NCBI GenBank assembly: GCA_001549895.1
Contig: AP014719.1
Location: 1,674,001 to 1,738,000 of the forward strand
Direction of reading: 5' to 3'
Source: Arthrobacter sp. Hiyo8
Lineage (GTDB): Bacteria > Actinomycetota > Actinomycetes > Actinomycetales > Micrococcaceae
DNA length: 64,000 nt
Numbering within the stretch: position 1 is the stretch's first letter; the number at the start of each line of letters is the position of its first letter. This document shows positions 21,803 through 38,436 of the stretch, piece by piece. A program made the position numbers and the translations under genes. The notes below the pieces were generated by a model that did not search any database, had not been told where the DNA came from, and saw nothing but the letters and a program-made list of their open reading frames with translations.

Positions 21803-22970
21803 CTAATGCTTCAGGTTCGTCAGCTCCTGCAGGACCTCGTCCGACGTCGTGATGATGCGGGCGTTCGCCTGGAAGCCGCGCTGGGCAACGATCAGGTTGG
21901 TGAATTCCTGGGAGAGGTCAACGTTGGACATCTCAAGGGCCCGGCAGTCAGGGTGCCGAGTCCGGCGTCGCCCGGGCGCCCAACTGGGCCGCGCCGGAGT
22001 TGGCGGTAGCCACATACGTGGAGCTACCGGATTTCTCGAGGCCGCCGGGGTTGGTGAAACGGGCAAGGGCCACGCGGGCCAGAACCTGCTTGCTGCCATT
22101 GCTGAACGAGCCGATGAGTGAGCCGTCGCCGCCGAGGGTGAATGACTCCAGCTTGCCTGCCTCGGATCCGTTCTGGCTGCCGACCGTGAGTGTGCTCATG
22201 GCCGCGAATCCGGTAACAGTGGACATGTCCACCGAGATGCCGCCGACGGTCATGGCACCGCCGAAGTCATCGCACCGTTCGCGAACGTGAGCGTCGAGTT
22301 CCCCGTGGCGCCGTTGGCGTCGGCCCCGGCCACATCCCAGCCTCCCGCAGAGCGGCTGAACGTCAGAGTCAGGCTGCGGGAGGCGCCGTCGGCGTCGTAC
22401 ACCTTGACCTGGCGCTCCACGCTGGTCCCACGGCCGCATCGGACGGCAGGTTGCCGTCCAGCGAGGCCTTGGTGGTGGCGACGGCGGCCGACGTCGTATT
22501 GGGCGAGAGGGCGATCGGGCCAACGGGACCTCCCAAGTTCACGGCGCCGTTGGCGGCAGACCAGCCCTGCAGGATCCCGCCGTCGGGGCTCACCAGACGG
22601 CCGGCCGCGTCCATGTCGAAGGCGCCCGCGCGGGTGTAGAGCTGCTGTCCGGCCTTGCTGGTGATGAAGAACCCGTCGCCGGAGATCATCATGTCAGTGG
22701 CCCGCCCGGTGTTCTGCGATGAACCCTGGCTGAAGTTGGTGCTGACTCCCGCCACGCGTACCCCGAGGCCGATCTGGGCGGGGTTGGTGCCACCGGTCTC
22801 GGCTTGCGGGCGCCGGCGCCCTGGGTCATCTGGGAGAGCGTGTCCTGGAACTGCGTGGAGGAGGCCTTGAAGCCGGCCGTGTTCACGTTGGCGATGTTGT
22901 TTCCCGTGACGTCCAGCATGGCCTGATGGGCACGGAGGCCGGAGATTCCGGAGTACAGCGAACGAAGCAT
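21803..22970 (-). CDS. flgE: flagellar hook protein FlgE (several frameshifts)
   Basis: Hook subunit, exported by the flagellar type III apparatus. The N-terminal rod/hook signature is [20 protein letters not shown] and [20 protein letters not shown]. The next section has [40 protein letters not shown] and the FlgE-type middle ([20 protein letters not shown]). The C-terminus ends [20 protein letters not shown] and [16 protein letters not shown]. At least four frame changes occur (near 22800, 22430, 22260 and 21965). It is last in the minus-strand flagellar operon; no flgF/flgG follows. Confidence 0.92.
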
Positions 22971-23009: not shown

Positions 23010-23433
23010 TCAGGCGGTTGGCGTGGCAGCGGCGGTCATCCCGCTGATGGAATCAAGCGGAACGTTCACTCCCCGACCGCTACCGTGGGGGTTCCGGCCG
23101 CGAAGGAAACCGAACTCGCGACGCCCGAGCCTTTGTCCCGTCGGCGAGCGCATAGCTGACGTTGTGCCCGATGATCTGTGCCGCGGCACTGCGCATCTGG
23201 AGCGAAAAACTCTCTTTGGCGTCCGCCGTGAGTTCCGTCATTTTCTCCATCATGGACAGCTGGACGGTCTGGTTCATCATCTGGTTGGTGTCCATGGGAG
23301 CGCTCGGGTCCTGGTTCTTCAGCTGAGTCACCAGGAGGGACATGAACATGCTCGAGTCCATGGTCTGCGCGGGTTTGGCTGCGGTGGTTCCGGGCTGGAC
23401 TCCGCTGCTTGCCGCGATGGCTTGGATGGTCAC
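23010..23433 (-). CDS. flgD: hook-capping protein FlgD (two frameshifts)
   Basis: Hook-assembly scaffold. The conserved N-terminal core is MFMSLLVTQLKNQDPSAPMD followed by NQMMNQTVQLSMMEKMTEL and the hydrophobic linker SAAAQIIGHNVSYALADGTK. The C-terminal short Ig-like part is in other frames (GVASSVSFAAGTPTVAVGE, then NVPLDSISGMTAAATPTA), giving about 140 residues, the short actinobacterial form. Breaks are near 23140 and 23065. The GTG start at 23433 lies 17 bp after the fliK stop, with GGAGAG before it; flgE begins 40 bp downstream. Confidence 0.9.
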
Positions 23434-23449: not shown

Positions 23450-24896
23450 TCAGACGAGAATGTCCAGGCTGCTGGTAATGCTTCGGGAAGTACGACGGCG
23501 GTCCGCGCCTGGCGGAGCGACTCGCCGTCGCTGCCCGTGGGAAGGCGGGACTTTCGGCCGGGCGCCGGTCACGGGGTCCGAGCCGCCCGCCCGGCATCGG
23601 CCGGAGCGTTGTGTTCGGACAGGTCGAGGCTCGCGCCGAAGCCCGATTCGCCGAGTCCACGCCGCAGTTCCGGCAGGATGCTGCGTATGGCCTCACGGCC
23701 GGCTTCTCCGGGGCGAACAATTCGATCCGGACCCCTGCGCCTTCGATATGCGCCCGGACAGTCAACGGACCGAGGTCTTCCGGGGAGAGCTTCAAGGTCA
23801 TCACGTGGGAGCCGGGCGCCGCCGATGCAAGCGAGAACAGCGGTGCGGACACTTGGGACAGCAGCTTCGCCGGGTCTGCCTGGAGAGTGGGCGTTGCCAT
23901 GCCGGGAGCGGCTGTCGTAGGAGCCTCCTGAAGTGGCGGCGCCGGCCGCCCACCAACGGAATTCCTGCCTGAATCTCCGAGGGAAGCCGGGTGCCGCGGC
24001 GACTTGCGTGTCCTGCCCAAGGACCGGTGGCGAGTCCCGTTGGGTCCCGGCTTTCCCGACGGGAAGTACGACGGCGGTGCCCGGCTCGCCTGCTTGGGCT
24101 GCGGTCGCGGTGACCCCGGTCGCGAGGCCGGCGGTCAGCGGGTTGATGGGCAGCGAGTTACCGCGGAGCGGGCCGGCGGGTAGCGCGACGGTTGGCGGCG
24201 GGCTACTGGGCAGGGCGCCGGGCATCTGGCTGGCAGGTGCAGCGGCCGGCAACGGGCTGGCCGGCAACGGGCTGGCCGGGATCGGACCAGGCTGGGCTGG
24301 GCTCTGACCAAGGCTCCCGAGCGGCAGCGCAGCCGGCACAGATGCGCCCACCTCCGTTCCAGCCGGCGTCGCCTGAGCGTTGCCCGCGGGCATCCTGACT
24401 GGCAGTCTTGCCGCTGCCGACGTGCCTGCAATGGCTTTGGCCGGGACCGTACTGTCAACGGCACTGTCTTTGGCCGACACAGTAACGCCAGTGCCGCCCG
24501 CCTGCGGAGCAGCGGTCCCGGCCGCGAGTCCACCAGCAACAGCGGCGGCGGCCGCATCAACAGCACCCACCACGGCGGCGCAACAGCACCCACCACAACA
24601 GCACCCGCCACGCCAGCCGCCTCAACCACACCCACAGCATCAACCCTGTCCTTGGCGACCTTCGACGCTTCCGGTTTGGCGGCTCGGGCGACCGGCCCGG
24701 AACCGTCGCCGGCAGGCTCTTCCTGGGCGCCGCCGTCGGGGGTCTGTTGTGCGGTCCCGAGCGAGGTCTTCGCGTCGGACGCCAGCACGCCGTTCATCAC
24801 GGCATCAAACCCGGCAGCCCCGCCGGACTGCTGCACGGGCGAAGAGCCGGGAACAGCCTGACGCGGAACTGCCGCAACAGAGAGTGGCAACGGCAT
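23450..24896 (-). CDS. fliK: hook-length control protein FliK (several frameshifts)
   Basis: Flagellar hook-length ruler. The N-terminal two thirds are low-complexity Ala/Pro/Gly, including the repeated PASPLPASPLPA, typical of FliK. The C-terminal FliK domain has HVMTLKLSPEDLGPLTVRA, VRIELFAPEK and AIRSILPELRRGLGESGFGA. After more frame changes it ends SITSSLDILV at 23450. Breaks are near 24560, 23985, 23700 and 23570. The ATG at 24896 overlaps the stop of the upstream NlpC/P60 gene (TGATG), so translation is probably coupled. Position between fliJ-NlpC and flgD supports the call. Confidence 0.88.
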
Positions 24897-25558
24897 CACG
24901 AGCCTCCCGCGGGGACAATCCGGCGGATCGCAGTCAGATTGGACTGCTGTTCCCACGCATCGCGGATCTGGATGGTCTGGCCGGGGACGGGCGCGTCGAT
25001 CGCTTTGCCGTTGCCGAGGTAGATGGAAATGTGTTCGCCGCCGAAACTCACCAACAGGTCGCCGGGCTTGGCTTGGGCCAAGGATGCCACGGGAGTGCCT
25101 TGCCGCATCTGGTCGCTGACGACGCGCGGCAGATCAACGCCGAGGTCCTTGAAGACGCGCTGCACGAAGCCTGAGCAATCCATGCCCACCGCCGGGTTGG
25201 TGCCGCCCCAGACGTAGGGCACACCGACGTATTTCTTGGCGTCGGCCACCACGGCATCGCCCGTGACAGCGCCGGTGGCCGTGCCTGTACCGGCACTCGA
25301 AAGCGCGCCCGCGATGCCGGAGAGGGCGGCACTGCCGCCGAGCCCCAAGGAAGAAGAGAGCTGGCTCACGTCCGGCGTCGCCGATCCCCCGACGGCGGAG
25401 CTCAGCGCTTGCGCGAAGGACGCCGAGTCGGTGGAAGTGGCCGCGCCCGCGGCAGTGGAAGCGGTGGTGCTCGCGGCAGTTGCCTGAGGGCGGATGCCTT
25501 GGCTGAGTTGCTGCAACATCGACTCGATGCTCTGAATGCGCCCGATGGCCTCGGTCAT
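24896..25558 (-). CDS. NlpC/P60-domain peptidoglycan hydrolase in flagellar operon
   Basis: Cell-wall endopeptidase, probably opening the wall for the flagellar rod or hook, as FlgJ does in Gram-negatives (inference from position). The C-terminal 120 residues form the NlpC/P60 domain: AKKYVGVPYVWGGTNPAVG, the catalytic Cys in MDCSGFVQRVF, and the His in GEHISIYLGNG. The N-terminal 100 residues are Ala/Ser/Thr-rich and begin MTEAIGRIQSIESMLQQL, a segment like the N-termini of other flagellar soluble proteins. No Sec signal peptide is seen, so export through the flagellar machine is possible. Intact. Confidence 0.87.
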   Translation of the reverse strand: MTEAIGRIQSIESMLQQLSQGIRPQATAASTTASTAAGAATSTDSASFAQALSSAVGGSATPDVSQLSSSLGLGGSAALSGIAGALSSAGTGTATGAVTGDAVVADAKKYVGVPYVWGGTNPAVGMDCSGFVQRVFKDLGVDLPRVVSDQMRQGTPVASLAQAKPGDLLVSFGGEHISIYLGNGKAIDAPVPGQTIQIRDAWEQQSNLTAIRRIVPAGGS

Positions 25559-25560
25559 GC

Positions 25561-25984
25561 TCACGAGGTGGCCTTCCGGTGCCACGCGGAGGACGCGATC
25601 TCGTCCAGCACGCCTTGCTCAGCGCGCAGCGCCGAAGCCTCAAATGCGGCGCCGTGCCGGGTTTCGAGCTTCTCGAGTCCTACTGCGCGGCGCTTGGCTT
25701 CGGTATATTCCGCGCGGGCCGCGGCGGCTTCAGCCTCGGCGCTGGCGGACAAGGCGTCAAGCTCGCCAACATGCTTTGCGCGGACGCCCGGGCGGCCGCG
25801 ATGGCCAGGAGAGACGCGGAGCTTCCGGCGCCTCCGGCGGACTCTGCCAGTTCCTCCCGGCGGTGGCTCGGCGGGATCGCAGGGACGCAGACCGGGAGTT
25901 GGCACGGGCCAGTCCACTGGCGGCGGCATCCTGCTGCGTCTGGCGCAAACGCAACAACCCGGCCAGGGAGAATTGACGGTTCAC
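25561..25984 (-). CDS. fliJ: flagellar export protein FliJ (two frameshifts)
   Basis: Small coiled-coil protein that links the FliI ATPase to the export gate. The start MNRQFSLAGLLRLRQTQQDA is typical (basic N-terminus then repeated charged helix), and the rest is Ala/Glu/Arg-rich and heptad-like (LSASAEAEAAAARAEYTEAK, then LEKLETRHGAAFEASALRAE). It ends ASSAWHRKATS. Breaks are near 25870 and 25780. GTG 25984 overlaps the fliI stop (GTGA). Identification rests on sequence character and on position directly after fliI. Confidence 0.82.
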
Positions 25985-27310
25985 GCGGCTCCTTCGAGGC
26001 TTGCTGAGAGGCGGAAGAGTTCCGGCCAGGACTCGCTGTACGGGGTGGATTCGTCCATGCTTTGCTGCAGGAACCCGTTGATGGCAGCTTCGTGGTCCAG
26101 GGCCGCGTCAACCAAGGGATTGCTGCCAGGGTGGTAGGCGCCGACGTCGATCAGGTCCTGGGCGCTGCGCCGCGCGGCGAGGACCCTGCGAAGGGATGCC
26201 GCGAGCGCCGTGCGATCGGCCGAGTTGACCTTGGAGGCCACGCGGGACACCGAGCCAAGGACGTCCACCGAGGGAAAGTGCCCCGTGACGGCGAGCTTCC
26301 GGTCCAGGACCACGTGTCCGTCGAGGATCGAGCGGGCGGCGTCGGCGATCGGTTCGTTGTGGTCGTCGCCGTCCACCAGCACTGTGTAGATACCGGTCAC
26401 GGATCCGGTTTCGGCGGTGCCGGCGCGTTCCAGGAGCCGGGCCAGAACGGAGAAGGTCGACGGCGGGTAGCCGCGGGTAGCGGGGGCTCACCGGCGGAGA
26501 GGCCGATTTCGCGCTGGGCCATGGCCACGCGGGTCAGTGAATCCATCATGAGGACGACGTCCTTGCCGGCTTCGCGGAAGGATTCGGCAATCCGGGTGGC
26601 AGTGACGGCGGCGCGCAGGCGCATCAGGGCAGGCTCGTCGGACGTGGCAACGACCACCACGGAACGGGCCAGGCCTTCGGGGCCGAGGTCGTCTTCCAGG
26701 AACTCGCGAACTTCACGTCCGCGCTCCCCCACCAAGGCAATGACGGACACTTCGGCATCCGTTCCGCGGGCGATCATGGACAACAGCGAGGACTTGCCGA
26801 CCCCCGAGCCCGCGAACAGCCCCATGCGCTGGCCTCGGCCAAGAGTGGCCATGGTGTCCAGGACGCGGACGCCGGTCTGGAGCGGAGTGTCCACCCGGGC
26901 ACGGTGCATGGCCGACGGGGCTTCGTTGTCCAAAGGGACCATAGGACTCGCGGGCATCGGGCCTTTGCCATCGATCGGACGCCCGAGCCCATCGAGTACC
27001 CGTCCGAAGAGGCCACGGCCGGTGGGGACCAGGATCGGAGCGCCCTTGGAACGGGCCGGGTCTCCCGCGGCCACTCCGGTCAACCGTCCCAGCGGCATGC
27101 AGCGGACAGCGCCACTGACCGAGGCGACCACTTCGGCGTCGAGCCCGGGCGCCTCGCCACGGTCACCAGGTCCCCCACCGCGCAGTCCAGTCCGGAGACC
27201 TCCAGGCCAAGGCCGAGGACGGACGTCACGGTACCCACGCGCTGCGGCGCCGCGGCGGCGAGGGCAGAGCGGAAACGGCCTGCGTGCGGCCGGTAGTTGA
27301 TGCCGCTCAT
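25981..27310 (-). CDS. fliI: flagellar export ATPase FliI (two frameshifts)
   Basis: Cytoplasmic ATPase of the flagellar type III export system, about 440 residues. The Walker A is LFAGSGVGKSSLLSMIARG, followed by VIALVGERGREVREF, and the Walker B is DVVLMMDSLTRVAMAQREIG. The YPPS box (RGYPPSTFSVLARLLERAG) is read across the frame change near 26480; a second shift is near 27170. The C-terminal helical domain ends LFRLSASLEGAA. ATG 27310 overlaps the fliH stop (ATGA). Gene order FliH-FliI-FliJ is that of other flagellar loci. Confidence 0.93.
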
Positions 27311-27921
27311 GCGTCTTTCCCCAGCAGGGCTGCCTTGGCCCTGTCCACTGCGGTGCTGAGCCGGGCGTCGAGCCAACCCTGCGGATATTCCGCAATCGCA
27401 TCGCCCGGGTCCAGGGCGGGATCGGCCTTGAGTTCGACGCCGGCCACGTTCCCGACGTCGACGGCGGACAGCGCGGCCAGGTCCGCCGGGTGGAGGCGGA
27501 CCGTGGTCACCGCTTGCACGTCTGAAACCGTTGCCAGAGCCCGGGCCAACGCGGCGCGGGCGGTATTATCGCCGGCGTTGAGTTCGTAACCCAGAATGGC
27601 TTCCGCAAGCTCCATCGCGCTGGCCGCCAACACGTCCTGCGCTTCCTCCAACACGGCACCGCGGTGCTGCCGGGACACTGCGGCCGCCGCCTCGAGCGCT
27701 CGGACAGCTTGCTCCACAGCCAGCTGCCCGGCGTCGAGCATTGCGCGGTGTTCGGCCTCGAATTGTCCGCGAAGGCGGCGCTGTTCCGCGGCCGCAGCCT
27801 GGATCCCGGCCGCGTAGCCCGCCGCGTGTCCCTGGGTGTATCCCCGGTCCTCTTTGCGCGACCTCGCGGCCGGTTGGATGTCCGGGAAAACCACCCTCTG
27901 GAATTCAGCCTCAGTAGACAT
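27307..27921 (-). CDS. fliH: FliH-family flagellar ATPase regulator
   Basis: Negative regulator that dimerises and binds FliI. The 204-residue protein is intact. It begins STEAEFQRVVFPDIQPAA, with an alanine- and glutamine-rich helical middle with repeated Gly/Ala spacing (GYTQGHAAGYAAGIQAAAAE, the FliH GxxxG-type region), and a C-terminal domain typical of V-type ATPase stalk proteins (AILGYELNAGDNTARAALAR, then VRLHPADLAAL). The ATG at 27921 is inside the end of fliG, an 11-bp overlap. It ends in an ATGA overlap with fliI. Confidence 0.87.
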   Translation of the reverse strand: MSTEAEFQRVVFPDIQPAARSRKEDRGYTQGHAAGYAAGIQAAAAEQRRLRGQFEAEHRAMLDAGQLAVEQAVRALEAAAAVSRQHRGAVLEEAQDVLAASAMELAEAILGYELNAGDNTARAALARALATVSDVQAVTTVRLHPADLAALSAVDVGNVAGVELKADPALDPGDAIAEYPQGWLDARLSTAVDRAKAALLGKDA

Positions 27922-28939
27922 AGTCGTCTTCCTCGCCGCGCCGGACCACGATGGCGCCTTCGGCTTCAAGCTCACGGATGGAACGGACAATCTCTGCCCG
28001 GGCTTCTTCAACCTGGGAGGCGCGCACCGGCCCGGCGGAAGCCATTTCGGCTTCCAGGATTTCGAGGTTGCGGCCGGACACGTTGGTGCGCACGGCGTCG
28101 AGAACCACGGCAGGGGCACCCTTCATGGCGACAGCGAGCACTTCGGCATTGACGCCACGAAGGATCTGCTGGATGTCGCGCCGTTCCAATTTCACGATGT
28201 CCACGAAGGTCAGCATCCGGGCGCGCACTTCCGTGGCCAGTTCCGGATCGAGGGTTTCCAGGCCTTCCAGCACGGAACGTTCGGTGTTGACGTCGGAACG
28301 GTTGATGATGTCGACGAGTGGCTGGATGCCGCCGACAATCTCGCTCGACTTCCTTTGCGACATGACGGCTCCGGCACGAACCTTGAGCGTCTCGGCCACG
28401 ATGCCCACGGCCTCCGGCGAAGCCAATCCCATCGTGGCTATGCAACGGGCCACCTCACTGCGTTGCACGTCGCCCAAGCCGGCCATGACCGCGGAAGCCT
28501 TGCCCGGCCGCAAATGCGCCAGGATCAAGGCGATGGTCTGCGGCATCTCGCCGTCGATGAGGGCCAGTAGCTGGCCGGAATCCATCATTTCCAGGAATTC
28601 GAAGGACTTCCCGGCCATCGTGGAGGCGAGACGGTCCATGAAGCCGGCCGCTTTGTCCGCACCGAAGGACGCTTCCAGGAGCCCGACGGCGAATTCCTGG
28701 CCGCCGCGGGCCGTCCGGCGTCCGCTGACCGCAAGGTCGTGGAATTCCGTCATGACGTGGTCTGCCACGGATGAGGAAACGCGGCGCAAGCGTACGATCT
28801 CGGCGGCGATGTCCTCGGCCTCGGATTCGGAGAACTGGGTCATGACGGACGCTGCGCTCGCAGGGCTCATCTGCATGAGCACCACCGCCACCTTCTGGGC
28901 GCCGGTCAAGCCGCCTACGTCCAACTCCCCCGCCCTCAT
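27911..28939 (-). CDS. fliG: flagellar motor switch protein FliG
   Basis: Rotor protein of the C-ring that contacts the stator; 342 residues, intact. The N-domain is LTGAQKVAVVLMQMSPASAA, the middle has the EHPQ-like box region IDGEMPQTIALILAHLRPGK, and the C-domain has the charged torque helix segment ARMLTFVDIVKLERRDIQQI followed by LAVAMKGAPAVV. The Gly-Gly linker region and the end REL-EAEGAIVVRRGEE are as expected. It overlaps fliF by 4 bp and fliH by 11 bp, showing tight coupling. Its partners FliM and FliN are not in the window. Confidence 0.95.
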   Translation of the reverse strand: MRAGELDVGGLTGAQKVAVVLMQMSPASAASVMTQFSESEAEDIAAEIVRLRRVSSSVADHVMTEFHDLAVSGRRTARGGQEFAVGLLEASFGADKAAGFMDRLASTMAGKSFEFLEMMDSGQLLALIDGEMPQTIALILAHLRPGKASAVMAGLGDVQRSEVARCIATMGLASPEAVGIVAETLKVRAGAVMSQRKSSEIVGGIQPLVDIINRSDVNTERSVLEGLETLDPELATEVRARMLTFVDIVKLERRDIQQILRGVNAEVLAVAMKGAPAVVLDAVRTNVSGRNLEILEAEMASAGPVRASQVEEARAEIVRSIRELEAEGAIVVRRGEEDDYVY

Positions 28940-30555
28940 ACGGACTGCCTTTCATCCATGAGCCCGCGCAGGTAATCGGCGGTCCGGGCGGGGTTCTCGG
29001 CAACCATGGCTTCAATCTGTGCCCGCCGCCGTTCGCCGTCGAGAGCCTCAGCGCCTGGCATCGGCAACGCCGGGACCGGATGCACCGGCGGCAGTTCGAT
29101 CGCCGAGGTGGCGGGCGGTCCTTCGAGCGCCGGGGTCGAGACCGCTTGAGGCAGCATCTCGTAGTCAAGGCGTTCGCCAAGGTCAACCGGTTCGCGGTGC
29201 TGCCGGCGCCGCAGGAGGATCAGCACGAGCACGATCAGCGCTACGACTGCCAGCAGGATGCTGCCCGCGAGAATGAGCGTGTTCATCAAATCCGACTGTT
29301 GCTTGGCGTCGGCTTGCGATTTGGCCGCGCCCAGTGCCTGGGCCGCCGCGTCTGCGGCCGAGGTACTGAAGGGCAGCACTTCGACTGTCACCACGTCGCC
29401 GCGGGTGGGATCGACGCCGGCCGCGGAAGTGACGAGGGCCTTGACCGAGTTGACGTTGAGTCCGGCCGCCGCCGACTGGTTGATGGCCACCGAGATGGTC
29501 TGGCGTTTCACGGCGCCTTGCGGAATGGTGCGGTCTTCGGTGACTTTGTTGACGGCGTTGTTCTTGGTGGTGTCGCTGGAATCGAACGTTCCGTTGCCGT
29601 TGGTGCCGCCCGGCACGGCAATGTTGTCCGGGCCAAGGACACCGGAGGCGCCGCCGCCGGTTCCCGTGTACTTCTCGGTCTTGGTGGTCTCGCTGAGCGG
29701 AGCGGCATCCTTGGCGGTGGAGAACGTCTCGCTGCGCTGCTGCGCGGACTCGGCGGTCACGTCGGCCGCGACGGCGACGGTGGCGTTGCCCGGTCCCACG
29801 ACCCTATCGAGTACTGCCTTCACCGAATCGGAGGTGCGCTGTTGGTAGTCGGCGGCTTGCTTGGCGGAGGAGCCCGTGGCTCCGCCTCCCACCGTGGAGA
29901 GGACGTTGCCCTGGGAATCCACCACGGTCACGTTCGTTGGCTTCAGGTTTTCGATCGCGGCGGACGTCAAGTGCACGATCGCCTGGACCTTATCGGCGGA
30001 CAGGGTGATGCCCGGCTGTGTTTCCACGAACACGGATGCCGTCGCGTCCGGAGCCTTGTCAACGAACACCGTTTTGGCCGGAAGGGCCAACTGCACGGCG
30101 GCTGTCTTCACGCCGTCCATGGCCTGGATGGTGGTGGCGAGTTCACCCTCGAGCGCGCGTTTGTAGGTAACCGATTGCTGGAATTCGGACGAGGTTACGC
30201 CGAGCTTGTCGAGCAGCGAATAGCCGGTGGCCGCGGCCGCCGGAAGACCGGCCGCGGCGGCTTTCAGCCGTTCGTCGTTGACCTTGTCATCGGGGACGAG
30301 GATGGTGGAACCGCCGTTGCTGAGCTCGTACGGGACATTGTCCTTGCGCAGCTGCTCCACGATCCCGTTGGCATCCGTGTCCTTCAAACCGGAGAACAAC
30401 GGCGAGTAAGACGGCTTGCCCAACCATGCTGACAGGGCCACTCCGCCGAGCACCAGGACGGCGATGCCGATGATGGCGATGGTGCGCTGCCCTGCCGTGA
30501 ACCCCTTGAATCCATCGCCCATCTTGCGGAAGAAGGCGGCAATCTGTGGAGGCAT
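28936..30555 (-). CDS. fliF: flagellar MS-ring protein FliF
   Basis: Membrane ring protein on which the basal body assembles; 539 residues, intact. The first membrane helix is TIAIIGIAVLVLGGVALSAW, after which come the ring-building motifs YSPLFSGLKDTDANGIVEQL and VTSSEFQQSVTYKRALEGEL, and the central domain VHLTSAAIENLKPTNVTVVD. A second helix (LILAGSILLAVVALIVLVLI) precedes the cytoplasmic FliG-binding tail, which ends YLRGLMDERQSV. The start touches the fliE stop. All features match family length. Confidence 0.96.
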   Translation of the reverse strand: MPPQIAAFFRKMGDGFKGFTAGQRTIAIIGIAVLVLGGVALSAWLGKPSYSPLFSGLKDTDANGIVEQLRKDNVPYELSNGGSTILVPDDKVNDERLKAAAAGLPAAAATGYSLLDKLGVTSSEFQQSVTYKRALEGELATTIQAMDGVKTAAVQLALPAKTVFVDKAPDATASVFVETQPGITLSADKVQAIVHLTSAAIENLKPTNVTVVDSQGNVLSTVGGGATGSSAKQAADYQQRTSDSVKAVLDRVVGPGNATVAVAADVTAESAQQRSETFSTAKDAAPLSETTKTEKYTGTGGGASGVLGPDNIAVPGGTNGNGTFDSSDTTKNNAVNKVTEDRTIPQGAVKRQTISVAINQSAAAGLNVNSVKALVTSAAGVDPTRGDVVTVEVLPFSTSAADAAAQALGAAKSQADAKQQSDLMNTLILAGSILLAVVALIVLVLILLRRRQHREPVDLGERLDYEMLPQAVSTPALEGPPATSAIELPPVHPVPALPMPGAEALDGERRRAQIEAMVAENPARTADYLRGLMDERQSV

Positions 30556-30896
30556 CAGGCCTGCATCCTCATGATCTCGTTGAACGCGTCAACGCCCTTG
30601 TTCCGCACCGTGGAGACAAGCTCCATGGTGATCTGGGCGCGGGTGGCAGCGATTGTCGCCTTGTGGATATCGTCAAGGTTGCCCGTTACCGCGGACACGG
30701 CCAGCTGGTTCGACGTCGACTGCAGTGACTGGAGGTTGTCCACGGCACCAGTCAGCGCCGTCGCAAAGCCGTTGCCGTCCGAAGTTCCCGCGACTCCGGT
30801 TACGTTGCCGGCGCCGCCCAGGTAGCCGGTGCCGGTGACGCCCTGCACGGAAAGTCCCCCGCCGCCTTGAATTGCGCCGATCGGGTCCAAAGCCAT
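30555..30896 (-). CDS. fliE: flagellar hook-basal body protein FliE
   Basis: Small rod component joining the MS ring to the rod; 113 residues, intact. The diagnostic C-terminal helix is DDIHKATIAATRAQITMELV followed by STVRNKGVDAFNEIMRMQA, ending in the family's EIMRMQ. The N-terminus is Gly/Val-rich and variable. It shares its stop/start with fliF and flgC (1-bp overlaps), so it belongs to one transcript with flgB-flgC upstream. Confidence 0.95.
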   Translation of the reverse strand: MALDPIGAIQGGGGLSVQGVTGTGYLGGAGNVTGVAGTSDGNGFATALTGAVDNLQSLQSTSNQLAVSAVTGNLDDIHKATIAATRAQITMELVSTVRNKGVDAFNEIMRMQA

Positions 30897-31288
30897 CAGG
30901 ATTTTCCTATCTCAAGCGCTGCCTGGTACGTCTCACGGGCCCGGTCCACCACTTGGGCGTTGGCCTGGTAGCCGCGTTGCGCCACAATCAGGGCACCCAT
31001 CTGTTCGGCGAGGTCGATGTCCGGGTAACGGACATAGCCTTGGGCATCGGCAAGCGGATGGTCCGGTTGATACACGAGCCTGCCGGTCGCACTGCCTTGC
31101 GGAGTGCTCTTGACGTACACGCCGGTTCCATCGCTGCCCTCGGCGGCTTCGATGTAGCGGGCTTGGAACGCCTTGCCGCTGGTGCGGGTGGCGGTATTAA
31201 TGTTGGCCAGGTTGTCCGAGACTGCATCGAGCCATTTGCGGTGGACAGTCAGGGCGGAGCCGGCAATCCCGATCGCGTCGAAAGTCAT
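30896..31288 (-). CDS. flgC: flagellar basal-body rod protein FlgC
   Basis: Proximal rod protein, 130 residues, intact. The N-terminal signature is IGIAGSALTVHRKWLDAVSD followed by NLANINTATRTSGKAFQARY. The C-terminal conserved helix is DIDLAEQMGALIVAQRGYQA followed by NAQVVDRARETYQAALEIGK. Unusually the second residue region has VHRKWLDAVSDN in place of the more common VQRLRMDVISNN, but the pattern is intact. Second gene of the flgB operon; 1-bp overlap with flgB. Confidence 0.95.
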   Translation of the reverse strand: MTFDAIGIAGSALTVHRKWLDAVSDNLANINTATRTSGKAFQARYIEAAEGSDGTGVYVKSTPQGSATGRLVYQPDHPLADAQGYVRYPDIDLAEQMGALIVAQRGYQANAQVVDRARETYQAALEIGKS

Positions 31289-31629
31289 CAGCTGGTCCTC
31301 AGGGCCGTGCGTAGGGCGGTGAATTGTTCGCCGATGGCACGGGAGGCGAACTGGTAGCGCAGGACGGTGTCTACGTTCGAGAGGGTTTCGGTGTCCAGGT
31401 TGACGTTGTTGCCGTTGAGCTGGGTGGGTTCCTGGGACGTAGTGACGGAAGCCGTGGCCTGCCCGTCTCCGGCGCTCACCGAGGCCGCAAGCGCGTCTTC
31501 GAACTGGACCCTTTTGGCGTGGTAGTTCGGTGTGTTGACGTTGGCGATGTTGTTGGCGATGGTGCGCTGGCGCAATGAGAGCCCGTCGAGGGCGCTACCA
31601 AGGGCAACAGAAGTCACTGACTCGAACAC
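31288..31629 (-). CDS. flgB: flagellar basal-body rod protein FlgB
   Basis: First gene of the long minus-strand operon; proximal rod subunit of 113 residues, intact. The signature is ALDGLSLRQRTIANNIANVN followed by TPNYHAKRVQFEDAL. The C-terminal helix is NVDTVLRYQFASRAIGEQFT and ALRTALRTS. A sigma-28-type promoter candidate lies 76 bp upstream of the start (31705-31731). Confidence 0.95.
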   Translation of the reverse strand: MFESVTSVALGSALDGLSLRQRTIANNIANVNTPNYHAKRVQFEDALAASVSAGDGQATASVTTSQEPTQLNGNNVNLDTETLSNVDTVLRYQFASRAIGEQFTALRTALRTS

Positions 31630-31704
31630 GACGGCCTACCTTCGCGAATAGTATGAAGAGGCCGATCCGTGGCCGTGCATCGAGCAATCCCTGCTCAACT
31701 TCCA

Positions 31705-31731
31705 CCATCGGCAAGCATGTGGCATCCGTTA
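31705..31731 (-). promoter_or_regulatory. sigma-28-type promoter upstream of flgB
   Basis: On the minus strand TAAC (31731-31728), 15 bp, then GCCGATGG (31712-31705). The known consensus for sigma-D/FliA/WhiG-type factors is TAAA-N15/16-GCCGATAA. It matches the two other promoter candidates in this flagellar locus. Confidence 0.7.
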
Positions 31732-31763
31732 GCCGATGAGCGATTGTTTTCAATACTTTCTCT

Positions 31764-32060
31764 TCAGCCCTGCACATCCAGGAACAGCGGGCGCGCGGAA
31801 CTTTGGCTGTCCGGGACCGTGCTGAGCGCGTCCAAGTGGGCGAGGGCGTCGTTGCGGACCTTGCCGAGCATCGCCATCGACTCCAACTGCGCGTCCAGTA
31901 TCCGGCGTGCTGTGTCCGCCAGCTCCTCAGGCAGCGGCCCGGCCTCGTCCGCGGCGGGCGGATTCCATGCCTCGGGCTCGCCGCCGGAGACGGCCAAGGC
32001 GATGTCCGCTTCAAGCCGGTCCAGGATTCCGGACCATGCCTGCACAGGATCAGCCGACAC
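31764..32060 (-). CDS. small FliT-like flagellar protein
   Basis: A 98-residue helical protein that I read from a GTG at 32060, since this overlaps the end of fliS by 11 bp; the next ATG upstream lies deep inside fliS. It reads VSADPVQAWSGILDRLEADI, then EELADTARRILDAQLESMAM and KVRNDALAHLDALSTVPDSQ. The size, helical make-up and position after fliD-fliS resemble FliT, the FliD chaperone, but I see no diagnostic motif. A more cautious name is fliD-operon protein of unknown function. It is intact. Confidence 0.6.
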   Translation of the reverse strand: MSADPVQAWSGILDRLEADIALAVSGGEPEAWNPPAADEAGPLPEELADTARRILDAQLESMAMLGKVRNDALAHLDALSTVPDSQSSARPLFLDVQG

Positions 32061-32490
32061 CGAGTGTGCCGTTCGTCCGTGCCGTCCCGGATACCGTCGC
32101 CTGGACAGGCAGCTGCGAAGCGGCGTCGTGCCAGCCTTGCCGGAGCGGTTCCAGGAGCACAATGCATTCTTTGGTCCGGTTGACGTCGCGGTAGATGTTT
32201 GCGCCGATCATCGCTTCCATCGCGTAATGGTAGATGCTCAGCAGTCCGGATGCCCCGTCCCACACATCGGTCTTCAGGGTGGAGGACAGCTCGGTGACGA
32301 TCGACTGGGCATGCAACAGGTTCTCGCTTGCCACACCCCAGTTGGCATTCTCCTGGGCGAACTGGGCGCGGTTCAGGTCCAGGAGCAGCCGGTCATAAAG
32401 CATCGTGAGGAGCCTGGCCGGCGGAGCCGACAGGACGGCGTCGTCGTTGTACCGGGAAAGCTGGCTGGCGCGGAGGGCTGTGGAGGTCAT
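32050..32490 (-). CDS. fliS: flagellin chaperone FliS
   Basis: Export chaperone that keeps flagellin unfolded; 146 residues, intact. The family motifs are RYNDDAVLSAPPARLLTMLY followed by DRLLLDLNRAQFAQENANWG, HAQSIVTELSSTLKTDVWDG, and LLSIYHYAMEAMIGANIYRD. It begins 13 bp after fliD and is followed by an overlapping small gene, so fliD-fliS-fliT-like form one unit downstream of the flagellin gene. Confidence 0.94.
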   Translation of the reverse strand: MTSTALRASQLSRYNDDAVLSAPPARLLTMLYDRLLLDLNRAQFAQENANWGVASENLLHAQSIVTELSSTLKTDVWDGASGLLSIYHYAMEAMIGANIYRDVNRTKECIVLLEPLRQGWHDAASQLPVQATVSGTARTNGTLGVG

Positions 32491-32502
32491 GCGTTACGCT
32501 CC

Positions 32503-33881
32503 TTACTTCGTCGAGCTTGAGAGGCCGGCAATCTGGCCGGTGAGCCATGATTGCTGGGCGTTGAGTTGGCCGAGGGCAACTTCCATGGCGTTGTACGTCG
32601 TTTGCAGGGTCTGCCGCCTGGAGGCCAAACGCTGGTCCCAGTCGGAGATCTGGCTCCCGAGGTCGGTCACTTCGGATTGTTGCCCCTTGATCAGGGCGGT
32701 TACCGAACCACTGAACGGATCGGTAGCGCTGGTTGCTGCGTCGGACACGCGGGATGCAATGGTCTGGAGCGCTGCCTGCGTCCCGGCGGGATCCGAAGCC
32801 AAGGACGATTGGAGCTTGGCCGCGTCAAACGTGAAGTTTCCATCCCTGGTGACGTTGATTCCGTATTCGGAGGGAGACTTCCCGTTCACGGGCATGGACA
32901 CGGCGGAGAAGACTTGGTCGTTGACCGAGCGGACGCCGCTGTTGCCGCTGAAGATGCCGCCACTGGCCGCGGAGGCGCCGTTGGCGTCGGTCGTCTGGGT
33001 CACGGCGCTGTAAATGGAGACGAAGCCGAGGACGTCATTGACGGCGTTCACCAGATCCCCGGCCTTTTTGGTGATGCCTGCGGAGTCACTGGCAATGTTC
33101 ACGGTCACCGGTCCGGCAGTGACGGCGGAGGCCGCCACTGACACACCGGGAAGCAAATCAGTGAAGGTGTTGGTTCCGGACGTGATTGTCTGCGCTGCCG
33201 GAGTCCCCGCATACAGCGTCGCTTTGGCATCCTGGGCGGCCTTGACGACGGCGGCGGAGGGGTCAGCCATCAGGTCGGTCGCGGTGCCCGCGCTCACTTG
33301 CGCTGCCGTGCCCTGGTAGACGCTGTACGCTCCAGCCGCACCTGAAGTGGCCGCGGTCAGTTGAAGGCGATAGGTTCCGTTGCCTGCCGGGACCTTTACG
33401 GCCCGGCCGGGCCGGACGCCGCGTTGATCGCCGTCACGACGTCGTCAAGGGAGGTGCTTGCAGGCGTGATTTCAGTCTGTTTTCCCGTGGAGTCGACGAG
33501 CGTCAGGTGTGCCGGTGCACCCGAGCCGTCGGTGGGCCAGTTGCTCATGGCCGCGGTGACGTCCACTTGGCTCTGGGCCAGCTGGGTGACGGTGACGTCG
33601 ATTGAGCCCGCGGTCGCGGAGGTGGTCGCCGTCGCAGTGATCGACGGAGAAGTCGTGGTGGCGCTAAACAGGTTCAAGGCGTTCACGGCCGAGTCGCCGC
33701 TTGCGAGGTCTTTCAGTGACGACAGCTTCGAGTTCAGCGATTGAAGCGTCGAAATCATTGTCTGGTCCGACGCAAGCTTCGTCTTCAGAAGTGTCTGCGG
33801 TTGTGCTTCCACCGCCATGAGCGAATCAATGATGGAGGTGGTGTTCAAGCCGCTGGCGAGGCCGTCGATCGAGCTTGCCAC
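32503..33881 (-). CDS. fliD: flagellar filament cap protein FliD (one frameshift)
   Basis: Filament cap (hook-associated protein 2), about 460 residues. The N-terminal domain is ASSIDGLASGLNTTSIIDSL followed by MAVEAQPQTLLKTKLASDQT. The C-terminal domain is LIKGQQSEVTDLGSQISDWD followed by RLASRRQTLQTTYNAMEVAL and NAQQSWLTGQIAGLSSSTK. The middle has the variable domain D2-D3 (Thr/Ala-rich). One frame change near 33405. It starts 45 bp after the hairpin that follows fliC, and no sigma-28-type promoter is evident in the 116-bp gap, so it may depend on read-through. Confidence 0.93.
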
Positions 33882-33925
33882 GTTTGGTCCTTCCGGATGT
33901 GTTGGTTACGTCGGCGGGTCCGGAG

Positions 33926-33970
33926 GCGAATGGCGGCCAGGGGTGTGTTCCCGTCCTGGCCGCCATTCGC
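33926..33970 (-). terminator. strong hairpin after fliC
   Basis: GCGAATGGCGGCCAGG at 33926-33941 is perfectly complementary to CCTGGCCGCCATTCGC at 33955-33970, a 16-bp stem with a 13-nt loop. It starts 27 bp past the fliC stop and lacks a U-run. It may trim or end the fliC transcript while letting some through to fliD. Confidence 0.75.
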
Positions 33971-33997
33971 TGATTACCGGTCAGCTACCGGAAGGTC

Positions 33998-34864
33998 TTA
34001 GCGCAGGAGCGAGAGAACGCCCTGGCCGGACTGGTTGGCCTGGGCAAGCATTGCGGTGCCGGCCTGGGACATGATGTTGGCCTTGGTGTACTTGACCATT
34101 TCCGAAGCCATGTCCGTGTCCGTGATGCGGGACTCGGCTGCCTGCAGGTTTTCGCCGGAGACCTGGAGGGTCTTCGTGGCGTGCTCCAGACGGTTCTGGG
34201 TTGCACCCAGGTCAGCGCGCTGAGCCGAAACTGCCGCGATGGCCGTGTCAACGGCAGCAATGGTCAGCTGGGCGTTGGCGCTCGTGTCCACCTTGAAGCC
34301 TGCAGCACCCGCTGCGCCGGAGAGGCCGGTAGCGCCGGTTCCGACGGCGGTTGCAACGTCGCCGAGGTTGATGGCGATCTTGTCGTTCGCGCTGCCGCCG
34401 GTGCCGACCTGGATGTTCAGGGATGCGCCGCTGTTTCCAGCCGCGCCCTTGAGCAGATCGATGCCGTTGAACTGAGTGGACTGCGTGAGGCGGTCCAGTT
34501 CCTTGCCGAGCGAGTCGCCTTCACCCTTGATCGCCGCACGGGAAGCAGTGTTGTTGGTGTCGTTCGAGCCCTGGACAGCGAGGTCACGCATGCGCTGGAG
34601 GATCGAGTGGACTTCGGTCAGTGCACCTTCAGTGGTCTGGATGACCGAGATGCCGTCCTGGGCGTTGCGGGCGGCGACTGCCGAGCCGCTGACCTGGGAC
34701 TTGAGGCCTTCCGAAATTGCCAGGCCTGCTGCGTCGTCAGCAGCACGGTTGATGCGCAGGCCGCTGGAAAGCTTCTCCATCGACTTGGACACGTCGTTCT
34801 GCGTGCGGTTGAGGTTGCCGTAAGCGTTGTTCGCCATCAGGTTTGTGTTGATTGCCATGCCCAT
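33998..34864 (-). CDS. fliC: flagellin
   Basis: Filament subunit of 288 residues, intact. The N-terminal D0/D1 domain is INTNLMANNAYGNLNRTQND followed by KLSSGLRINRAADDAAGLAI. The C-terminal D1/D0 domain is TDMASEMVKYTKANIMSQAG followed by TAMLAQANQSGQGVLSLLR. The central domain is short (about 80 residues), so the surface part is minimal. ATG 34864 is chosen because GGAGGA lies 9 bp before it; a second ATG follows two codons later. The promoter at 34929-34956 has the sigma-28 form. Divergent from flgN-flgK-flgL. Confidence 0.95.
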   Translation of the reverse strand: MGMAINTNLMANNAYGNLNRTQNDVSKSMEKLSSGLRINRAADDAAGLAISEGLKSQVSGSAVAARNAQDGISVIQTTEGALTEVHSILQRMRDLAVQGSNDTNNTASRAAIKGEGDSLGKELDRLTQSTQFNGIDLLKGAAGNSGASLNIQVGTGGSANDKIAINLGDVATAVGTGATGLSGAAGAAGFKVDTSANAQLTIAAVDTAIAAVSAQRADLGATQNRLEHATKTLQVSGENLQAAESRITDTDMASEMVKYTKANIMSQAGTAMLAQANQSGQGVLSLLR

Positions 34865-34928
34865 GATGTATTCCTCCATGATTGGGTCTGCTGGTACTCC
34901 CAGGCCGTCCGTGGCCTGTCACTTCTGG

Positions 34929-34956
34929 TTATCGGAACGGCGGTCCCCTTTGGTTA
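34929..34956 (-). promoter_or_regulatory. sigma-28-type promoter upstream of fliC
   Basis: On the minus strand TAAC (34956-34953), 16 bp, then TCCGATAA (34936-34929), 65 bp before the fliC start. It closely follows the FliA/WhiG-class consensus TAAA-N15/16-GCCGATAA. The rest of the gap 34865-35164 shows the plus-strand promoter below and nothing else that I recognise. Confidence 0.72.
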
Positions 34957-35049
34957 GCAAAACGCCGCAGGAAAATTTGTTACAGGCCTCAAGATCCGCC
35001 GCGCGTCACTTGACTGGACAAAGCGAATAAATCATGCATAAACAACGCC

Positions 35050-35076
35050 TAACGCATGGGCCGCGTCGGCCGATAG
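35050..35076 (+). promoter_or_regulatory. sigma-28-type promoter upstream of flgN
   Basis: TAAC (35050-35053), 15 bp, then GCCGATAG (35069-35076), on the plus strand and divergent from the fliC promoter. It lies 89 bp before the flgN start and would drive flgN-flgK-flgL-fliW. Confidence 0.72.
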
Positions 35077-35164
35077 TTGTTTTCAGCGCGGCGAGGGCAC
35101 AGGGGAAGTGCTTTCCCGCGGCAACGCACCCGAAAATCCAACCCGGAACTGGAGTTGACCCGAC

Positions 35165-35664: not shown

Positions 35665-35730
35665 CCTGAACACGGCGGACAAGCAAAGGCCGGACCATCT
35701 CAAGGCCCGGATCACCCAAAGGACACAGCA

Positions 35731-37164
35731 GTGAGCACATTCGGCGGACTCAATACGGCCTACCTGGGCCTCACCGCGGCGCAGCAGGGCATCAACGTTG
35801 CCGGACAGAACATCGCCAACGCCGGCACTGACGGGTACACCAGGCAGCGGATCGAGCAATCCGCCGTCGGCGCACCCGCGCGCACGGGCCTCTTCGCAGC
35901 AGGCACACAGGCCGGTCAGGGCGTGTCCGTGGACGGGATCGCCCGCCTGGGCAACAGCTTCCTCGATGCCGGGGTGCGCTCCGGCGCGGCCCAGGCCGGT
36001 TACGCCGGCTATCGGTCCACCCAACTCCAGCAACTCGAAGGCTCCCTGAACGAGCCGGCCCGCCGGAATATCGACGGCGTTGCAGACCTTCTGGTCCTCG
36101 TGGCAGGGAGTCTCCAACCACCCGGGAGAAGCAGCCCCGGCCGGCGTGCTGCTGCAGGCCGGCACCACCGTTGCCAATGCAGTGTCGGCGGGCTACAAGG
36201 CCTTGGATTCACAGTGGACCCGGATTCGCGGAGAAGCCCAAAGCACTGTCGCCACCCTGAACGATGCCGCAGCCCAAGTGGCCGGCTTCAACGCGACGAT
36301 CCGTTCCGTTACGGCCTCGGGAGGATCCGCCAACGAGATCATCGATGCCCGAAACAAGGTAACTGAAACTATTGCTTCCTTGGCTGACGGAACTGTCCGG
36401 GACAACGCCGACGGCACGGTCGATGTCTTCGTGGGCGGCAACGCCATCGTCTCGGGTACGTCGCACCGCGAGCTCGCGCTGAGCGGCCAAACAAGCATGG
36501 GAGCGCTGGGCTCAGCGGTGCAGTCGGGGGACCAGTGCAGTTGGAATGGGCCGATCGCCCGGGTGTGGCGGTTCCCCTCGACGGCGGAAAGCTCGCCGGC
36601 GCTGTCTCACTTCTCGCACCGGCCGCGGGAGGCGCGGGAGGCGCCATCTCCGAGGCCGCTGCTTCCTACAACGCCTTCGCCACAAAACTCATGAACGATG
36701 TCAATGCCGTGCACCGCACCGGGCAGTCCACCACCGGCGCCTCAAACCTCGATTTCTTCGCGACCACCCCTGGTGCCCCGGCGGCCCTGTCCCTCAGCGT
36801 TATCCCGACGAGCTCCGCGGGAATCGCCACCGGCACTCCAGGTTCCGGTGCCCTTGACGGCAAAATCGCGGACGCAGTCGCCCAAATCGGCACCGGGCAG
36901 GGTTCCCCTGACGCGCTGTGGTCCGGAATCGTCACAGGGATCGGCACGGCGTCACAGTCGGCACAGCAGCACCAGCAGCTCGCCGACGCGGCGAGCACTG
37001 CCGCCGTCGGGCAGCGTTCCTCCGGTGCGTCCGTCAGCCTCGACGAGGAGAACATCAGCCTCCTGAGCAACCAGCACGCCTACCAAGCGGCGGCCCGAGC
37101 CATGACGGCCGTGGATGAAGCACTCGACGTCCTGATCAACCACACCGGATTGGTGGGAAGGTAA
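35731..37164 (+). CDS. flgK: flagellar hook-filament junction protein FlgK (two frameshifts)
   Basis: Hook-associated protein 1, about 478 residues. The N-terminal signature is STFGGLNTAYLGLTAAQQGI followed by NVAGQNIANAGTDGYTRQRI. The C-terminal helix is GASVSLDEENISLLSNQHAY followed by AAARAMTAVDEALDVLINHT, which ends LVGR. Middle part: LDSQWTRIRGEAQSTVATLN. Frame changes lie near 36100 and 36530. It starts with GTG/ATG reading STFGGLN just after AAGGACAC; flgL follows 3 bp later. Confidence 0.93.
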
Positions 37165-37167
37165 GCC

Positions 37168-38055
37168 ATGCTGAACCGTGTCACGAACCAAACAATGTCG
37201 GCGGCCGCACAACTGAACCTGCAGGCCGGGCAGGCAAAACTCGCTGCGCTGCAGGACAAGGCCAGCAACCTCAAAAACATCACCAGGCCCTCGGACGATC
37301 CCGCGGCCACGGCGAACCTGCTCGCTACGAAGAGCCAGCTCAGCGCCGCCGGACAGTATTCGAACAACATCAACGACGGCAATGGCTGGCTGACCACCGC
37401 CGATTCGGCCCTCGGCCAGGCCACCAACATTCTCAACCGGGTCCGAGACCTCACGGTCCAGGCTGCCAACGGTTCCCTGAACGGCAACGCGAAGGAGGCG
37501 ATCGCCGTCGAAATCGAAGGCCTCAACAAGGACCTTCTCGCCCAGGCAAACACGCAGTACCTGGGCCGGAACGTCTTCGCTGGAAGTTCCGATTCCGCCG
37601 GCGCGTTCAGCATCGCCACGCCACCGGTCTTCAACGGAACGCCAGGCAGCACAGTGGAACGACGGATTGACGCGACACAGACGGTGCGGGTAGACGCCGA
37701 CGGCGGTGCGATCTTCGGTGACGGCGCCGGCTCCGTCTTCGCTTTGGTGAGCAACGTCGTCGCCGATATCCGCTCCGGCGCGGATGTCAGCGGGCGTTTG
37801 ACGACGATCGGCGACAAGATCAAGTCGGTTGTCAACGGACGCGCGGACGTCGGTGCCAGGCAGACTAAGCTCATGCGCGCCCTGGACTCCGTCGACGGAC
37901 TAAAGGCCTCGCTGGACGCACAGCGCTCCGGAATTGAAGACGCAGACATCGGAAAGGTCGTCATGGACTTGAAGCTGCAGGAAACCAACTACCAGGTTGC
38001 CCTTGCGGTCACCGCCAAGACGCTCCAGCCCACGCTCATGGATTTCCTGAAGTGA
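37168..38055 (+). CDS. flgL: flagellar hook-filament junction protein FlgL
   Basis: Hook-associated protein 3, 295 residues, intact. Its N-terminus is LNRVTNQTMSAAAQLNLQAG followed by KLAALQDKASNLKNITRPSD, the flagellin-like N-domain with the PSDDP box. The C-terminus is GIEDADIGKVVMDLKLQETN followed by YQVALAVTAKTLQPTLMDFL. The order FlgN-FlgK-FlgL-FliW is that of many Gram-positive bacteria. Its stop overlaps the fliW GTG start (GTGA). Confidence 0.95.
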   Translation: MLNRVTNQTMSAAAQLNLQAGQAKLAALQDKASNLKNITRPSDDPAATANLLATKSQLSAAGQYSNNINDGNGWLTTADSALGQATNILNRVRDLTVQAANGSLNGNAKEAIAVEIEGLNKDLLAQANTQYLGRNVFAGSSDSAGAFSIATPPVFNGTPGSTVERRIDATQTVRVDADGGAIFGDGAGSVFALVSNVVADIRSGADVSGRLTTIGDKIKSVVNGRADVGARQTKLMRALDSVDGLKASLDAQRSGIEDADIGKVVMDLKLQETNYQVALAVTAKTLQPTLMDFLK

Positions 38056-38436
38056 GCACCGCACAGGCTTCCCGGGCGTTGAGCTTCACCGCGCCCATGC
38101 CGGGCTTGAAGCGTCTGACGGCTTCGCTTTGCGGGGAATCGACGGCGCCCCGGGCTCTACGCGATGGAGTCGGCGAGCCCGCGGATCCGGATGTTCCTGG
38201 CCGAGGCCGTGGTGTACGTTCCGGGCTACGAGCCCGCCATCCCCCGCTCGACACTGGACGACCTCGGCCTGGACCGGGCTGAGCTGGCAACCACGTTGGT
38301 GGTGGTCAACCCGAGCCCGGAGAAGACCACGGTAAATCTCGCGGCCCCGATCGTGCTGAACCCGGAAACCGGACGCTGCACGCAGCTTCTCCTCGATAGC
38401 AAGGAATACCCCCTCCGGGCCGAGCTGAGCGCCTAA
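38052..38436 (+). CDS. fliW: flagellar assembly factor FliW (two frameshifts)
   Basis: Cytoplasmic protein that binds flagellin and, in Bacillus, relieves CsrA repression. The protein starts at a GTG (STAQASRALSFTAPMPGL), then continues in other frames (FALRGIDGAPG, then LYAMESASPRIRMFLAEAVV and YVPGYEPAIPRSTLDDLGLD). The family-specific end is VVVNPSPEKTTVNLAAPIVL and NPETGRCTQLLLDSKEYPLR. Breaks are near 38100 and 38155. No csrA follows within the window. It overlaps flgL by 4 bp. Confidence 0.9.

Follow-up and report, generated by a model that had tools for sequence, protein, structure and literature searches.

Predicted sigma-28-type promoters shared by the flagellar operons of Arthrobacter sp. 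Hiyo8 and related Micrococcales

The stretch of DNA analyzed here, referred to as the window, comprises 64 kb (G000:C1:1674001-1738000) of the 5.03-Mb genome of Arthrobacter sp. Hiyo8 and carries part of a flagellar gene cluster, in which a basal-body operon led by flgB and the genes fliC-fliD-fliS are read from the minus strand and flgN-flgK-flgL-fliW from the plus strand (Table 1). A sigma-28-type motif stands before each of the three leading genes, at 31707-31731 (-) before flgB (TAAC-N15-GCCGAT), at 34931-34956 (-) before fliC (TAAC-N16-TCCGAT) and at 35050-35074 (+) before flgN (TAAC-N15-GCCGAT). Judging from the sequence comparisons below, all three are very likely read as promoters by one FliA/WhiG-like sigma factor, which would turn on the set of flagellar genes in a single tier; the flgN promoter probably also serves flgK, flgL and fliW. 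An earlier reading made from the letters alone (the sequence-only reading) had proposed the three sites; all are where it placed them, and profile searches identify the genes behind them as flgB, fliC and flgN.

The pattern TAACN{15,16}KCCGAT matches the window at these three places and at no others, where 0.12 matches are expected, and none of 100 shuffles reached three. That the sites are chance matches in DNA of 64% GC is close to inconceivable: although the motif and looser versions of it occur elsewhere in the genome, the shuffles and the conservation of the same places in many species refute it. The sequence-only reading had itself asked whether the motif might be equally common in random DNA of this genome. 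It is not: the whole 5.03 Mb holds 15 matches where the reversed pattern has 8, and three of these matches fall in one 3.4-kb stretch. The likeness to the known sigma-28/WhiG consensus can be refined. The sites fit the flagellar/WhiG consensus TAAA ... GCCGATAA printed in PMC8325347, and the fliC and flgN sites each have two mismatches to its strict form, TAAA-GCCGATAA. In relatives the -35 box reads CTAAC where the consensus has TAAA, and most -10 boxes end in ATAG.

The motif is widely conserved at the same places. The locus sample of 81 consisted of the window and the best 80 of a longer list of named fliC-relative loci, mostly from Micrococcales with two from Nocardioides, in which 350 bases upstream of fliC, flgB and flgN were scanned at a score threshold of 10.5; the totals for flgB (70) and flgN (61) omit loci without a usable match to the gene or cut by a contig end. 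The refined motif, C-TAAC-N15-GCCGATAG (the A motif), was found before fliC in 56 of 81 sequences, flgB in 51 of 70 and flgN in 52 of 61; the corresponding figures were 1, 0 and 0 for reversed sequences and 1.2, 1.4 and 2.8% for shuffles. With TAAA-GCCGATAA, at most two mismatches and a spacing of 15-16, the counts were 41/81, 34/70 and 41/61 (reversed 1, 0 and 0). The distance from motif to start is fairly constant, mostly -67 to -92 for fliC (around -72) and mostly -94 to -113 for flgB (around -100). Because the spacer columns average only 0.27-0.41 bits, in sites that were chosen by a loose pattern, the boxes are more than a reflection of overall similarity; the base before TAAC, which lay outside the selection pattern, is a C carrying 2.0 bits in fliC and flgB and 1.1 bits in flgN.

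A cognate sigma factor for the motif, which would read the sites directly, is present in the same genome. The gene (G000:C1:1647889-1648703), which is split over two frames, is 57 kb away from flgB and matches TIGR02479, so the genome does hold the sigma-28-family gene that the sequence-only reading had proposed to look for. It is intact in the two closest relatives (G120 and G121), and FliA_WhiG (TIGR02479) is the best NCBIfam family for all eight intact relatives scanned. Across a sample of 120 genomes of the family, in which the sigma was counted at E <= 1e-35, FliF was present in 37, and the sigma was present in 35 of these 37 compared with 1 of the other 83 (G100), a difference with p = 2.5e-28 by Fisher's test with G102 counted as positive and relatedness uncorrected. 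The two FliF-positive genomes without the sigma at that threshold are G029, which is 82% complete, and G102. The motif showed the same distribution, in 35 of the 37 and 10 of the 83. By our sums, TAACN{15,16}GCCGATAG had 77 matches in the 37 genomes and 13 in the 83, and its reversed form 13 and 36; the reversed pattern is thus a poor null and the comparison between the groups a better one. CsrA and FliW exceeded their cut-offs in 35 and 36 of the 120 genomes, every one FliF-positive. FlgM exceeded its cut-off in none of the 120, with one weak match, and the control search found it in E. coli and B. subtilis. G102 itself has FliF but lacks CsrA, FliW and the motif and matches the sigma only weakly (8.6e-15); its flagellar system is possibly of other origin.

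The list of three sites, though all of them are real, proved incomplete, since outside the window flbD-motA and fliM are preceded by the motif as well. In the clade of this strain the flagellar cluster is split: about 33 kb separates the N-terminal part of flgE from flbD-motA, and about 5 kb lies between motA and fliM-fliN-fliP-flhA, which are followed by csrA and the sigma gene. In each of five genomes examined, TAAC-N15-GCCGACAG stands before flbD and TTAC-N15-GCCGATAG before fliM, with scores of 11.5-12. The fliM promoter (L005:17953-17979, minus strand) ends directly upstream of a conserved GTG, and the fliM mRNA may therefore be leaderless. No site scoring above 10.5 was found before the sigma gene (six genomes), motA, flhA, flgD or flgE (five genomes each), the FlgN-like neighbor of the sigma gene (four genomes) or, in the window genome only, flgL or fliW; matches of 9.5-10.5 lie about 265 bases upstream of the sigma gene in four genomes, and one of 10.5 lies upstream of flgD in G122. 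Since no motif site precedes the sigma gene, this gene is probably transcribed from another promoter and serves as the input. The FlgN-like open reading frame (ORF) beside it (L005:8852-9493, plus strand), which is divergent from the sigma gene and without the motif, is conserved in close relatives and is 43% identical to FlgN over 82 residues; considered as an anti-sigma factor, it had no Pfam match at 0.001 and only a chance match in the PDB.

The splitting stretch (G000:C1:1664182-1696794, covering window positions 1-22794 and L006) holds mostly non-flagellar genes, and the same flgE-to-flbD distance is about 35 kb in G120, 25 kb in G122 and 46 kb in G123 and less than 4 kb in A. oryzae (G124). 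One could conclude that the flagellar genes are degenerating in this strain and that their promoters are relics, given the interruption of the cluster by about 33 kb of other genes and the frame breaks in the sigma gene (L005:7889-8703, minus strand), fliI, fliD, flgN and flgK. We think this quite unlikely. The breaks are scattered over many genes in the manner of an error-prone assembly, from which they probably stem; G120 and G121 have an unbroken sigma gene; the split is common to G120, G122 and G123; and this strain has all the sites.

The strongest support for one sigma comes from Microbacterium, where early and late operons share a motif even though the motif has changed. Twelve loci, 11 of Microbacterium and one of a Microbacteriaceae bacterium (L027, L044, L046, L048, L056, L059, L063, L066, L069, L070, L073 and L074), are without the A motif at fliC. 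They carry a B motif, GGTTAC-N13/14-GTCGCGATAG, common to fliC, flgB and further flagellar operons; in the form GGTTAC-N13/14-GTCGCGA it is present at fliC in 12/12 and, when one base is allowed to differ, at flgB in all 11 loci that include flgB. Among the fliC/flgB motif pairs of the 81 loci, 35 are A/A, 11 are B/B and none is mixed, the remaining 35 loci having no strict match or no flgB region at one or both places. Together with the conservation of the motif at all three heads in many genera, the absence of mixed loci bears out the proposal that one sigma would serve the rod, filament and junction genes.

The sigma factor differs along with the motif. In a search that left out L025, all 12 B-type genomes had a sigma 35-38% identical to the query, and five A-type Microbacterium genomes had only one, 51-52% identical. 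The gene for the divergent B sigma lies beside fliC in the five loci extracted, and the five aligned B sigmas read DPAGER, compared with DW(A/V)xR in the A type, in a stretch that we take to be sigma region 2.4; a helix that is presumably region 4.2 also differs between the two types. Genome-wide, the B motif had 57 matches in the 12 B-type genomes and 1 in the five A-type genomes, with no reversed match in any of the 17. Going by their places, we counted 49 of the 57 no more than 25 kb from the B sigma gene and on its contig; another 6 are on contigs with a second FliA-like sigma, and 2 are at other places. In both of two B-type genomes that were fetched, B sites stand before fliC, flgB, flgN and fliP and directly after fliG, and in one of them before flbD; no A sites were found in those stretches. 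The A-type Microbacterium G145 has A sites before flgN, fliC, flgB and flbD. The exchange appears to be new within the literature searched, and the Microbacterium group provides two sigma/promoter pairs that look orthogonal and could be useful for studying joint change of a sigma factor and its promoters. Eight of the 12 B-type genomes (L170-L175, L177 and L179, with L176 and L178 excluded) also retain a second FliA-like sigma, whose identity to the query is 44-50%.

It could be argued that the motif binds a conserved activator or repressor and is no sigma promoter, as conservation alone is silent on what binds. We regard this as very improbable, since the two boxes stand at a fixed N15/16 and match the printed sigma-28 consensus, the motif co-occurs with the sigma gene, and both boxes change along with the regions of the sigma that read DNA.

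A number of observations count against a single sigma reading all of these sites. Under the strict pattern there is no A site at fliC or flgB in two of three Agromyces loci, in one Leifsonia locus or in the Actinotalea, Cellulomonas and Demequina loci, and both Nocardioides loci are without one at fliC; near-matches are present in several loci that fail the strict A pattern. A looser pattern had 39 matches in 11 Arthrobacter-type genomes compared with 29 for the reversed pattern, whose counts are not a clean null; by our count from their places, 29 of the 39 lie inside flagellar contig stretches, so that the signal there is one of location. The sigma gene of this assembly has a broken frame, its fragments scoring 71.6 and 31.4 bits, and the eight intact relatives score 102-139 bits, under the curated TIGR02479 cut-off of 189.6, which is why we call it FliA/WhiG-like. 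Finally, the flgB site has three mismatches to TAAA-GCCGATAA, over the two-mismatch limit, and is the weakest of the three in the window; it is closer to the order's own consensus, CTAAC-N15-GCCGATAG.

This weak flgB site would fit another explanation, namely that only the late genes depend on sigma-28, with flgB transcribed mainly from a vegetative-sigma promoter and its sigma-28 site just a booster. The fla/che operon of B. subtilis is arranged in this way, with a main promoter for the vegetative sigma and a sigma-28 site that boosts it, and the sequence would allow flgB an additional promoter read by a different sigma. The flgB site is, however, about as conserved across relatives as that of fliC, flbD and fliM carry the motif too, and the Microbacterium exchange altered fliC and flgB together in 11/11 loci, all of which makes a mere booster rather unlikely.

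Under the single-tier arrangement that we favor, RNA polymerase with the FliA/WhiG-like sigma would read C-TAAC-N15/16-GCCGATAG before five flagellar operons: fliC-fliD-fliS; the flgB operon, for rod, MS ring, export ATPase and hook; flgN-flgK-flgL-fliW; flbD-motA; and the fliM operon, for switch, export gate and csrA. Transcription from the sites and the extents of these transcripts are predictions. With FlgM absent, there is no export checkpoint of the enteric kind to keep early and late genes apart, and any ordering would probably be post-transcriptional, through CsrA acting on the hairpins of the fliC and flgB leaders with FliW as its antagonist.

The sequence-only reading had set this arrangement apart from the usual early/late class split, which is a fair contrast with enteric bacteria. 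The enteric FlhDC-FliA-FlgM cascade likewise has a FliA-type promoter before the flagellin gene, but here the rod, motor and switch/export operons (the flgB, flbD and fliM heads) carry the motif as well. The idea is not new. For Actinoplanes missouriensis, another actinobacterium with FliA-family sigmas, Jang et al. in 2016 reportedly described one promoter type for all flagellar operons, with a consensus said to be CTCA-N15-17-GCCGAA. That organism differs from the Micrococcales studied here in being filamentous and forming zoospores and in this reported consensus, which is not CTAAC-N15-GCCGATAG. A single tier is thus a known kind of arrangement, and the comparisons support its extension to Micrococcales. 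In the literature, WhiG-like sigmas direct the flagellar and pilus genes of Actinoplanes (PMC8325347), which has three FliA-type sigmas (PMC13293333); the WhiG/RsiG systems of Streptomyces and Rubrobacter share the sigma clade and promoter type, but act on genes for sporulation or type IV pili (PMC8325347). Other papers report that no FlgM-like protein was found in WhiG-containing motile actinobacteria, in which the role of WhiG in motility had not been analyzed (PMC4255298), and that FlgM is missing from later actinobacterial classes (PMC10746217). Among the open-licence papers listed, nothing on point was found on flagellar promoters of Arthrobacter or Microbacterium or on CsrA in Micrococcales.

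The leaders of fliC and flgB carry conserved CsrA-type hairpins. A GGA-loop hairpin is present in 71 of 81 fliC leaders compared with 3.5% of shuffles, with a strict six-base ANGGA loop in 66. Two hairpins with A-N-GGA loops, of six or seven bases, are present in 69 of 70 flgB leaders, where 0.07% of shuffles have two or more, the usual pair being GAGC-ACGGATN-GCTC and GGCC-ACGGATC-GGCC. In flgN leaders GGA-loop hairpins are at chance (4/61 compared with 7.2% of shuffles). A looser scan gave 72/81 for fliC, 69/70 for flgB and 21/61 for flgN, with 19, 27 and 34% of shuffles. In the fliC stem one pair is C-G, G-C, U-A or A-U in 58 of 61 rows, and the covariation score and the cells changed on both sides (75 compared with 28.5) exceed the shuffles and were reached in 0 of 500; stem pairs changed on both sides number three, which is not above shuffles. 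The flgB hairpins covary little because their sequence hardly varies. The alignments, which comprise the window together with 72 of 80 loci for fliC and 68 of 69 for flgB, took rows in which a hairpin of at least three pairs was present and so lean towards structure. Folding of the fliC and flgB leaders of the window is no more stable than that of shuffles (z = -0.55 and -0.72), and flgB hairpin 2 is missing from the minimum-energy fold of the window leader alone; with folding energy unremarkable, the case for the hairpins rests on their conservation. A search of 31000-36000 against Rfam gave no plausible match, only a chance miRNA match under the gathering score.

By analogy with other bacteria, CsrA would bind the fliC and flgB leader hairpins. 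The ANGGAN loop is a known RsmE/CsrA site and extra loop bases can reduce RsmE affinity (PMC7652899), CsrA of B. subtilis represses flagellin via its leader, and CsrA of C. jejuni binds many flagellar mRNAs (PMC7652899; PMC4894983). The CsrA-FliW-flagellin circuit of these two species resembles the present one in that csrA and fliW belong to the flagellar gene set and the flagellin leader has an ANGGAN hairpin. It differs in that the most regular sites here are the tandem pair in the flgB leader. The loops of this pair are mostly of seven bases instead of the ideal six (a six-base ANGGA loop is found in 7 of 70), which could weaken any CsrA binding there. Tandem flgB-leader hairpins were not found described among the open-licence papers listed, and both these and the fliC leader hairpin appear new within the literature searched. 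If they are CsrA targets, the flgB hairpins would bring the basal body, in addition to flagellin, under CsrA control. It is possible, though we offer it only tentatively and the seven-base flgB loops make it less likely, that Micrococcales lack transcriptional ordering altogether, with one sigma, no FlgM and CsrA-FliW balancing basal body against filament by translation, and that Microbacterium exchanged the sigma and its mapped promoters for an orthogonal pair. If true, this exchange would be a natural rewiring of a whole regulon. The five predicted promoters, one sigma and missing FlgM make for a concrete and testable answer.

Table 1. Predicted promoters, leader hairpins and flagellar genes of the window (window positions).
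Feature	Position	Strand	Basis
flgB-operon promoter, sigma-28-type (predicted)	31705..31731	-	TAAC-N15-GCCGATGG; exact match and conservation
fliC promoter, sigma-28-type (predicted)	34929..34956	-	TAAC-N16-TCCGATAA; exact match and conservation
flgN promoter, sigma-28-type (predicted), divergent from fliC	35050..35076	+	TAAC-N15-GCCGATAG; exact match and conservation
fliC leader hairpin CAGGCC-ACGGAC-GGCCTG	34901..34918	-	CsrA/RsmE-type ANGGAN six-base loop; conservation, covariation
flgB leader hairpin 1, GAGC-AGGGATT-GCTC	31682..31696	-	conservation
flgB leader hairpin 2, GGCC-ACGGATC-GGCC	31660..31674	-	conservation
flgE N-terminal part	22794..22970	-	named by eye and position; place after flgD conserved in relatives
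flgD	23080..23433	-	PF03963
NlpC/P60 hydrolase within basal-body operon	24896..25585	-	PF00877
fliI, in two frames	25981..27401	-	two ORFs, consecutive parts of FliI models
fliG	27911..28939	-	TIGR00207
fliF	28936..30555	-	TIGR00206
fliE	30555..30896	-	TIGR00205
flgC	30896..31288	-	TIGR01395, slightly below cut-off
flgB, first gene of basal-body operon	31288..31629	-	TIGR01396
fliS	32050..32490	-	TIGR00208
fliD, in two frames	32503..33881	-	PF02465 and PF07195
fliC	33998..34879	-	flagellin models
flgN, frame broken after 98 codons	35165..35461	+	PF05130
flgK, in several frames	35731..37164	+	PF00460, PF22638, PF06429
flgL	37168..38055	+	PF00669 and PF00700; named by position after flgK
fliW, protein antagonist of CsrA	38164..38436	+	PF02623

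The true start of fliC is likely at 34864, behind a GGAGG ribosome site; this fliC is 98% identical to that of Arthrobacter sp. efr-133-TYG-118 and 95% to that of A. alkaliphilus. Among the genome's matches to the motif, TAACCGCCCTCCCGAAGTCGCCGAT is repeated in three copies and is probably a repeat element. As a candidate for a wider regulon, we considered a near-perfect TAAC-N16-GCCGATAA at G000:C1:2393000-2393027, upstream of an ORF that looks CalY/TasA-like by eye and has no Pfam match. It was taken as background because none of 28 other loci checked, which come from 38 other places matching the looser motif in the 11 Arthrobacter-type genomes, encodes a relative of this ORF.

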